Part shown: one piece after another, positions 30,914 through 57,355 of the stretch
Layout: each line of letters opens with the position of its first letter
Position numbering within the stretch: position 1 is the stretch's first letter
DNA from: Gemmatimonadaceae bacterium
GTDB lineage: Bacteria > Gemmatimonadota > Gemmatimonadetes > Gemmatimonadales > Gemmatimonadaceae
Assembly: GCA_025931335.1 (NCBI GenBank)
Contig: JAICNG010000001.1
Coordinates: 20,676-84,675 of the forward strand
Direction: 5' to 3'
Length of the DNA: 64,000 nt
The notes under the pieces: model-generated
Database searches by the model: none
Told to the model about the DNA's origin: nothing
What the model saw: only the letters and a program-made list of their open reading frames with translations
Translations under genes and position numbers: made by a program

Positions 30914-31000
30914 GGAATGAGAATCGAGGAATGCGGAAGCCGTTGAGCGGGCTGCTGCTGACATCGATTTCCTCACCGCTTGGTCCTCATTCCCCTCATT
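30910..31000. repeat. TGAGGAATGAGGA inverted repeat, copy 2
   Basis: The left arm starts in the DinB stop codon (TGAGGAATGAGAATCGAGGA) and the right arm carries TTTCCTCACCGC and GGTCCTCATTCCCCTCATTT. Arms are less perfect than in copies 1 and 3. It separates the DinB gene from the DUF1761 gene on the same strand. Confidence 0.75.
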
Positions 31001-31099
31001 TCATCGACGCCCGATCTCGCGCAAAACCCCCGGAAGCGGTATTCTCACCCGCGCCCGGCGCGACGGCGCGCCGGCTCACCCCTGACGCGGGAGGTCTCA

Positions 31100-31516
31100 G
31101 TGCCCCAGATCGACGTGAACTGGCTCGCCATCATCGTCGCCGCCGTTGCCGCCTTCGCGCTCGGCGCGCTGTGGTATTCGCCCCCGCTGTTCGGTCGCCA
31201 GTGGATGACCGCTCACGGACACACTCCGGAGAAGCTGGCGGCCATGCAGTCGAGCATGGGCAAGACGTACACGTTCTCGTTCATCACGTACGTGATCATG
31301 GCGATGGTGATCGCCCTGCTCATGGGTCTCACCGGCGCCACGACGGCCATTCAGGGAATCGTGCTGGCGGTCCTCGCATGGCTCGGCTTCGGCTTCACGA
31401 TCGGCCTCAACACCAATCTCTACTCCGACAAGCCGGCGGCCGCGTTCATGATCGACGCCGGATACCAGCTCGTGCACGTCATCCTGATGGGAGCGATCAT
31501 CGGCGCCTGGCGCTAG
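31100..31516 (+). CDS. DUF1761 family membrane protein
   Basis: A GTG start lies a few bases after GGGAGG. The 138-residue protein has four predicted helices, beginning NWLAIIVAAVAAFALGALWY, the DUF1761 signature (residues 6-25), followed by SPPLFGRQWM and later YVIMAMVIALLMGLTGA. Function is unknown. It converges on the ornithine-cyclodeaminase-like gene with an inverted repeat between the two. Confidence 0.88.
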   Translation: MPQIDVNWLAIIVAAVAAFALGALWYSPPLFGRQWMTAHGHTPEKLAAMQSSMGKTYTFSFITYVIMAMVIALLMGLTGATTAIQGIVLAVLAWLGFGFTIGLNTNLYSDKPAAAFMIDAGYQLVHVILMGAIIGAWR

Positions 31517-55699: not shown

Positions 55700-55730
55700 A
55701 AAACAATCCCGACAATGTCAATCGGGATTG
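55700..55730 (-). terminator. Hairpin with T tract between fusion gene and receptor gene
   Basis: On the minus strand a perfect 9-bp stem (CAATCCCGA/TCGGGATTG, 55704-55712 and 55722-55730) with a 9-nt loop is followed by TTTT. It lies 20 bases after the second stop codon of the antiporter-rhodanese gene, supporting that stop as the true gene end. An operator role for the receptor gene is the alternative. Confidence 0.7.
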
Positions 55731-55750: not shown

Positions 55751-57355
55751 TTACCTCCTGACGGTGGGGAGGCCCGCGTCGACCCACGCGCGCCATCCGC
55801 CCACGAGGGGGCGCACGTCGGTCCATCCAGCCGCTCTCAGCTCGCGCGCCACCCGGGCGCTCGTGGCTTCGTCGACTCACGCACAGTACACGACGAGCGA
55901 GCCATGCTGGTCGAGTCCCAGCTCCTTCGCCGCTCGGACCGCGTCATTCGGTGGCAGCCGGATGGCGTCGCGCGCCATGCGGTCGTCCTGCTCCCAGGTG
56001 CGCTCCGACCGCGCGTCGACAATGGTCAGCCGCTCACCGCGATCGAGGCGGGCGCGCATCTCGTCGATGGTGATCGGCGTCGCGTCGGCCTCCGGCGATG
56101 GAGGCTGAGCGGCGAGGGACTCTTTGGGGTGAGCGTGCTCACGCCTCGCTCTTCCTTCCTCGTTCGACGCTCGTGCATCCCGCCGCAACCAGATCGCGAT
56201 CCCGCTTCCGTGCAGCACCACCGACAGCAGCACGACGAGGCAGGTGATCGCGAACAGGGGGGCCGCGCCCGGCATGCCCGCGAACACGGGCAGCAGCACG
56301 AGGAGGAGCGAGCTGAGTCCCCGGGGGCCGAGCCATGCGATGAGCCGGCGATCCCGTTGGTCGAGTCCCGCGCGCGCAAGGACGGGGTACAGCGTCGCGG
56401 TTCGAACGATCAGCGCGAACGCGGTAAAGATGAGGGTGCGCCCATCGGCGACGTCGAACCCCGTCCACAGCAGCGCCGCGCCGAAGGCGACGAACGTCAG
56501 CAGCAGGAACATCTCGGCCGTCGCCTCGCCGAACTCGAGGAAGCAGTCGCACAGCTCGAGGTCCTGCACGGCGATGACGAGCCCAGCCGCGAACGCGGCG
56601 AGGAAACCGCTTCCCCCCACACTCTCCGCCAGCGCGAACGCGGTGAACGCAATGCCGAGCGCGTAGAGGGACTCGTAGTCTCGCCGAACCCCGACGCGGT
56701 CGCGCACGCGCACCAGCGCGATGATGCCGATCCACCCGACGAGGGCGCCGATGAGCGGGCCGAGCAGGAACATCCCGACGATGCTGCGCGAGAGTCTCAG
56801 CGCGATGTCGCCCTCGCCGGGCATCGCGAGCAGCATCGCGACGATGACGATCGGGAGCAGGACCGCATCGTTCATCCCGCTTTCCATGCGCAGCGCCACG
56901 CGGGTGGTCGCCGGCAATCGTCGGTGGCGAAGCACGGTGCGCAGCAACACCGGATCGGTCGACGCGAGCGCTGCCCCGAGAATCGCCGCATGCGGAAGGC
57001 TCACCGACAAGAGTAGATGCGCCGCGCCCGCGATGAGCGCCGCGACAATGACCGTTCCGGGGCCGAGGATGAGCAGCGCGAGCCTCCGCTGCTCTCGCAG
57101 CGCGCGCGTATCGACGGAGATCGCGTCGCTGAACAGCACGAGCACGAGCGCCAGCGTGGCGATGACGCGGAGCGCCGGCGAGTCGAGACCGACATCGACC
57201 AGCCCGAGACCCCACGGCCCCAGCGCGGCACCCAGGGCGAGGAAGATCGCCACCTGTGGAATGCCGCTCCGCTCGACTGCCCCGGAGAGCAGCGACGAAA
57301 CGACGATGACGATCCCGATGAGCGCGAGGAGAGACGCGAACTCGTGCACGGACAC
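55751..57355 (-). CDS. Cation/proton antiporter fused to a rhodanese domain, candidate selenoprotein (in-frame TGA at 55879-55877)
   Basis: Residues about 1-390 are an NhaP/CPA1-type antiporter (RMESGMNDAVLLPIVIVAML with the ion-binding ND pair; SGFLAAFAAGLVIAVQDLE). A linker leads to a rhodanese domain: ITIDEMRARLDRGERLTIVD, ARSERTWEQDDRM, then GSLVVYCA followed by TGA. The frame continues VDEATSARVARELRAAGWTD and VRPLVGGWRAWVDAGLP to TAA at 55753-55751. The TGA falls where relatives read YCxC, so it replaces the second cysteine. The hairpin GCGCC/GGCGC with loop CGGGT lies 16 nt after the TGA. Without readthrough the rhodanese lacks about half its fold. GTG at 57355 is the start. Confidence 0.75.
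55846..55876 (-). promoter_or_regulatory. Putative bacterial SECIS hairpin after the rhodanese TGA
   Basis: Reading the minus strand, the 16 bases after the TGA lead into GCGCC (55860-55856), loop CGGGT, and GGCGC (55850-55846); outer AGC/GCT pairing can extend it. The loop is 21 nt from the TGA and has G at its second position, within bSECIS limits. Chance GC-rich folding cannot be excluded. Confidence 0.4.

Follow-up and report, generated by a model that had tools for sequence, protein, structure and literature searches.

The minus strand of the window (the whole stretch of 64,000 nucleotides analysed here) carries a frame that is interrupted by a TGA within a rhodanese domain, which raises the question whether this codon is a stop or is read as selenocysteine, and what a protein of such a build would do. 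The frame (57355..55751) has a GTG start codon and, after 492 codons, reaches the in-frame TGA (55879-55877), which is followed by 41 codons and a TAA (55753-55751). Around the TGA it reads GSLVVYCA-TGA-VDEATSARVARELRAAGWTDVRPLVGGWRAWVDAGLPTVRR-TAA, exactly as a first-pass annotation had described it. Read-through yields a product of 534 residues with Sec493, and the active-site loop GSLVVYCA-U-VDEATSARVARELRAAGW is split by the TGA. Residues 19-391 (56183..57301, minus strand as for all features of this gene) matched the Pfam family Na_H_Exchanger (PF00999, 2e-45, 155.7 bits, cut-off 26.2) and present a CPA1-type cation:proton antiporter domain with a predicted 13-TM NhaP/NHE/KefC fold. Residues 430-526 (55778..56068) matched Rhodanese (PF00581, 1.1e-8, 35.8 bits, cut-off 22.2) from position 2 to 101 of the 102 positions of the profile, thus read-through completes a full rhodanese domain as claimed at first pass. 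The terminator-like hairpin with a T run was likewise located downstream of the TAA (55704..55730); one such structure was found in the scanned stretch against 0.7 expected by chance. An Rfam scan of the fusion gene revealed nothing notable, and PADLOC gave zero matches. The neighbouring genes code for an S9 peptidase, a TonB-dependent receptor and a dicarboxylate symporter. Gene neighbourhoods of the fusion vary between groups, with ABC-2 exporter genes upstream in two actinomycetotal loci, thus the genomic context gave no hint of the function. In two loci of one genus (L109 and L110, genus g38), a further, ordinary antiporter gene (31-32 % identity) adjoins the fusion gene in head-to-head orientation.

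Alignment with other antiporter-rhodanese fusions, a check proposed in the first-pass annotation, revealed TGA, never TAA or TAG, at the Sec codon of all 27 other intact fusions, hence in 28 of 28 genes including that of the window. In these 27 homologues, 41-54 intact codons follow the TGA. The homologues span the phylum of the window, Actinomycetota and Chloroflexi MAGs at 38-79 % identity. The within-phylum sample, comprising 149 relatives and later 395 genomes, provided full fusions of 49-79 % identity with one TGA each, while five further fusions (from Actinomycetota and one Chloroflexi MAG) had 38-40 % identity and the sequence YCT-TGA-PNEATSAR or close variants of it. The dN/dS ratio downstream of the TGA, also proposed for comparison across the codon, was 0.09-0.42 in ten pairs (NG86) and resembled that of the remainder of the gene, so purifying selection has been kept beyond the TGA. 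A single locus deviated: L046 in genome G062 has kept the antiporter with its Cys-Asp-Cys (CDC) motif and has lost the rhodanese half by a frame change.

Within the gene, synonymous constraint peaked at codons +1 to +15 after the TGA, which contain the best nine-codon windows of 475. The codons for the S-A-R-V-A segment are nearly frozen (Ser AGC 27/27, Ala GCC 24/24, Val GTG 21/22, Ala GCG 23/23); elsewhere in the gene synonymous codons vary freely. The constrained bases pair as GCGCC-CGKGU-GGCGC in a hairpin that begins 16 nt downstream of the UGA. Standard pairs were present in 149 of the 150 cells of the hairpin alignment, with both sides altered in four cells, and the covariation score was reached by none of 500 shuffles. 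Compensatory stems occurred as GCACC/GGUGC in L036 and L037 and as GCGUC/GACGC in L041 and L076, where the protein differs. RNAalifold recovered the identical hairpin unprompted. A bacterial SECIS is described by a stem of 4-16 bp, a loop of 3-9 nt with a G in the first two positions, a distance of 16-37 nt from UGA to loop and an energy of -7.5 kcal/mol or below (PMC13188914). The window hairpin (GCGCC-CGGGU-GGCGC, 55846..55860) lies within these ranges: its stem has 5 bp and its loop 5 nt, the second of them a G; the UGA and the loop are 21 nt apart, and the energy is -11.2 kcal/mol in a 25-nt window. The SECIS prediction downstream of the TGA that had been suggested at first pass thus led to a conserved hairpin. 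Energies of single sequences were modestly below those of synonymous recodings (mean z -1.0), and the recoded sequences often gave hairpins almost as stable. Within the 80 nt from the TGA, the minimum-energy fold favours a longer-range pairing, and its stability does not exceed that of shuffles (z -0.5); L041, L043 and L076 adopt different minimum-energy folds in 45 nt. As the energy tests are weak, the case for the SECIS rests on conservation.

The sel genes, for which a search had been advised as well, were all found in the host, a Gemmatimonadaceae MAG of 3.73 Mb in 189 contigs with 81 % completeness, in which the window is part of contig 11: selA in two pieces at contig ends (374 and 341 bits), selB (316 bits), selD (383 bits) and a tRNA-Sec (73 bits, TCA anticodon) adjoining selD. 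DNA identical to the plasmid record NZ_CP007129 of Gemmatirosa kalamazoonensis was present in genome G017, a member of the host's family, which places the host in the same family as this organism. The host selD (G000:C74:8073-8990, in locus L105, G000:C74:7500-9600) has an in-frame TGA of its own, with Sec predicted in CAGUAAK; the tRNA-Sec gene (G000:C74:9088-9180) follows closely downstream. Among the 149 relatives, selB exceeded the threshold in 17 of the 18 with a fusion and in 85 of the 131 without (Fisher p = 0.007). The one Sec-bearing relative in which selB was not seen, G066, is represented by an 81 % complete genome. With selB over threshold in 102 of the 149 relatives, selenocysteine use is common in the group.

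Two other readings of the codon have to be weighed against these observations. A true stop or a sequencing error with a decaying 3' part has in its favour only the stop codon that interrupts the frame. It is opposed by the TGA that 28 genes from three phyla share at this codon, by the purifying selection past the TGA, by the synonymous constraint right after it and by the Sec machinery of the host; this reading is refuted to a high degree and retains a very small probability. Error, pseudogene and recoded stop are rejected in view of the 28 TGA-bearing genes; as these are separate gene copies, they exclude a sequencing error of the kind that resequencing to a Cys codon, named at first pass as a refutation, would reveal. 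The other two refutations named there, a lack of Sec machinery and a loss of purifying selection past the TGA in relatives, were likewise contradicted by the data. For a decoding of the UGA as a different amino acid, through a suppressor or under an altered code, no supporting points were found; about half of the orthologues end on TGA as their normal terminator, and tRNA-Sec and SelB are present in the host, which renders this reading negligible. The gene thus almost certainly, as judged from its sequence, encodes a single membrane protein in which a CPA1-type (NhaP/KefC-like) antiporter is followed by a rhodanese at the cytoplasmic C terminus and UGA 493 (55877..55879) is decoded as selenocysteine via SelB, tRNA-Sec and the hairpin. 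The first-pass annotation had counted this gene as one of two independent TGA-for-Cys events in the window. Its interpretation as a selenoprotein stands for this gene, while a second, independent selenoprotein in the window is unsupported: four scans of the window for read-through TGAs that either are flanked by coding signal or have a Cys nearby left only the TGA at 55879. The only other candidate with coding-like scores on both sides, at 31048-31350 on the minus strand (TGA at 31215), was rejected; it is antisense to an open frame on the plus strand (30980-31516) and has no Pfam match.

In the rhodanese half, every fusion has a CxU motif (YCAU, YCTU or FCTU). Its first residue, Cys491 (55883..55885), occupies the usual position of the active-site Cys of rhodaneses and was invariant. 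The loop of the window rhodanese reads C-x-U-x-x-E-A-T-S-A-R, and the six-residue CxxxxR loop of classical sulfurtransferases is absent; in the ordinary rhodaneses that the same Gemmatimonadota genomes encode, the loop has its usual, shorter form, YCxxxNRSA or similar. Sec493 and Cys491 probably constitute a Cys-x-Sec redox pair in the active-site loop, a chemistry suggested by the motif. The claim that related rhodaneses have cysteine in place of the TGA was borne out by DedA/VTT-rhodanese fusions encoded on plasmids of Burkholderiales, which show YC[ASDV]CP at this site (YCACPNE, YCSCPNE, YCDCPAE and YCVCPNE). A Cys form of the antiporter-rhodanese fusion was not found among the 395 genomes of the window's phylum. 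The best NCBIfam match of the window rhodanese was NF041203 (rhodanese_LYCAU) with 88.1 bits for the whole protein and 92.6 bits for the domain, both below the curated cut-off of 115, and none of the 149 relatives passed this cut-off. Other genomes of the order contain free-standing rhodaneses of 110-160 residues (L076, L078 and L079) that share YC[AT]-TGA and the SECIS hairpin with the fusions; they also score below the NF041203 cut-off, and the model may be too strict for the group. A single-sequence structure model of the rhodanese domain had a pLDDT of 51 and was set aside.

In the antiporter half, Asp163 (56867..56869) of the ND motif (ESGMND) was invariant and is presumed to be the ion-binding Asp of CPA transporters. 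The predicted structure of the antiporter (pLDDT 72, from a shallow alignment) matched SOS1, SLC9C1, PaNhaP, MjNhaP1, NHE1 and KefC. The equivalog model of PRK05326 (NhaP2/CvrA, NF003716) gave 164.9 bits, less than its curated cut-off of 355. A cysteine pair, Cys269-Asp-Cys271 in the sequence LCDCF (56543..56551), is located at the predicted cytoplasmic loop or helix start between TM9 and TM10. Every one of the 30 fusion loci (29 genes) has LCDCF. Of 15 non-fusion antiporters, one had a CxC (CSC) and none a CDC. The one with CSC at the same loop position, L048 of genome G125, is possibly a stand-alone thiol-gated relative. The C terminus of the 13-TM family lies inside; the rhodanese and the connection of TM9 and TM10 are thus expected to face the cytoplasm. 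When aligned by profile with KefC of E. coli, LCDCF adjoins the HALESDIEP motif. This motif is a cytoplasm-facing regulatory or gating element of the transporter domain (PMC2920069) and forms a short helix that faces the KTN domain (PMC10224563).

A redox gate is proposed because the CDC is found in every fusion and aligns beside the HALESDIEP gating motif of KefC, and because KefC is among the fold matches. The CxU loop would sense or handle an oxidant, an electrophile, a reactive sulfur species or a soft metal(loid), and could exchange electrons or make a mixed bond with Cys269-Asp-Cys271 in the cytoplasmic TM9-TM10 loop; the reaction at the CDC would switch the antiporter on or off. Such a gate would resemble the gating of KefC by glutathione adducts, with the selenol in place of the glutathione-binding KTN domain. 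Control of the antiporter by a redox relay from the CxU rhodanese is put forward tentatively, at slightly less than even odds, and with the odds somewhat further against it, an internal selenol-thiol relay between CxU and CDC may let cation:proton exchange respond to signals from oxidants, electrophiles or soft metals. Observations against gating are the CSC of L048 without a fusion and the CDC retained in G062 after the loss of the rhodanese. Moreover, the fusions may form one clade, therefore the link of CDC and CxU counts as a single evolutionary correlation. Taken as a whole, a Sec-bearing antiporter-rhodanese with redox gating by the CxU as the most likely role is the best explanation, with a probability of about 0.85.

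The main rival to gating is a tethered redox enzyme: the CxU rhodanese itself would be the enzyme, a reductase or a sulfur or selenium transferase, and the antiporter would serve, ungated, as membrane anchor or as ion and pH support. That the domain can act alone is indicated by the free-standing CxU rhodaneses with the same hairpin in the order, and CxC rhodaneses are also joined to another membrane family, DedA, in fusions that have been noted with unclear purpose (PMC10127716). A mere anchor, however, would not account for the CDC that all fusions keep invariant on their cytoplasmic side, and we consider this alternative rather unlikely. The UGA may also act as a selenium-dependent switch that reports the selenium status, with an antiporter of 492 residues and a broken rhodanese in the absence of selenium and the full protein in its presence. 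The very late position of the UGA, past the whole antiporter domain, would suit such a role, as termination would spare the transporter. However, Sec in the active-site loop of the rhodanese is the usual catalytic placing, regulatory features were not found, and the tail shows purifying selection of the ordinary kind. A switch is accordingly improbable, though it is compatible with the Sec-bearing, redox-gated antiporter and does not exclude it.

Rhodaneses with CxU are known selenoproteins, listed as form 3 in Table 1 of PMC13188914 and as COG0607 form 2 in PMC9312934. NF041203, the 'rhodanese-like domain-containing protein form 3', likewise has Sec as the U of C-x-U in the active-site loop; its model covers a protein about 126 residues long, whereas the window protein scores below the cut-off and is fused to an antiporter. 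The TsoB rhodanese/DsbD-like selenoprotein (NF045694) is also a Sec rhodanese fused to a membrane protein, but has two Sec residues and no antiporter, and the window protein matched it weakly (17.8 bits, cut-off 805). The DedA/VTT-rhodanese fusions of Burkholderia, Caballeronia, Comamonadaceae and Cupriavidus share with the window protein the order of a membrane protein and a C-terminal rhodanese with an aligned C-x-C, but belong to another membrane family, have Cys instead of Sec and show 31-36 % identity. NhaP-type Na+/H+ or K+/H+ antiporters (PaNhaP, MjNhaP1, NhaP2/CvrA PRK05326) have the domain family, fold and ND motif in common with the window protein, but lack the rhodanese, the Sec and the CDC loop. 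The glutathione-gated K+:H+ antiporters KefC and KefB also carry a cytoplasmic C-terminal regulatory domain, and their regulatory loop aligns beside the CDC of the window protein; they differ in having a KTN (RCK) domain, glutathione adducts and a loop without a Cys pair, and the sequence similarity is remote. A KTN (RCK) domain of the KefC type is absent from the window protein, whose C-terminal domain is the rhodanese, so the resemblance to KefC would be one of manner of working rather than of membership. A table of 119 selenoprotein families in a 2026 review includes rhodanese, DsbD-like and other transporter selenoproteins, but not an antiporter (PMC13188914), and no paper on an antiporter selenoprotein was found in the literature searched. 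What is new is the conserved architecture that holds the known Sec motif, and the Cys pair that accompanies it in the transporter.

The NCBI models gave no match above their cut-offs, therefore automatic annotation probably takes the UGA for the end of these proteins, and half of their rhodanese domain is lost. The pairing of CDC and CxU offers a concrete hypothesis for thiol/selenol gating of a transporter. If the redox gate holds true, this would be, within the literature searched, the first antiporter known as a selenoprotein. Most selenoproteins are redox enzymes in soluble form; a Sec in an antiporter across three phyla would link selenium to the control of membrane ion exchange, and the conservation of the arrangement in these phyla suggests an ion exchanger that is controlled by selenium-based redox chemistry.
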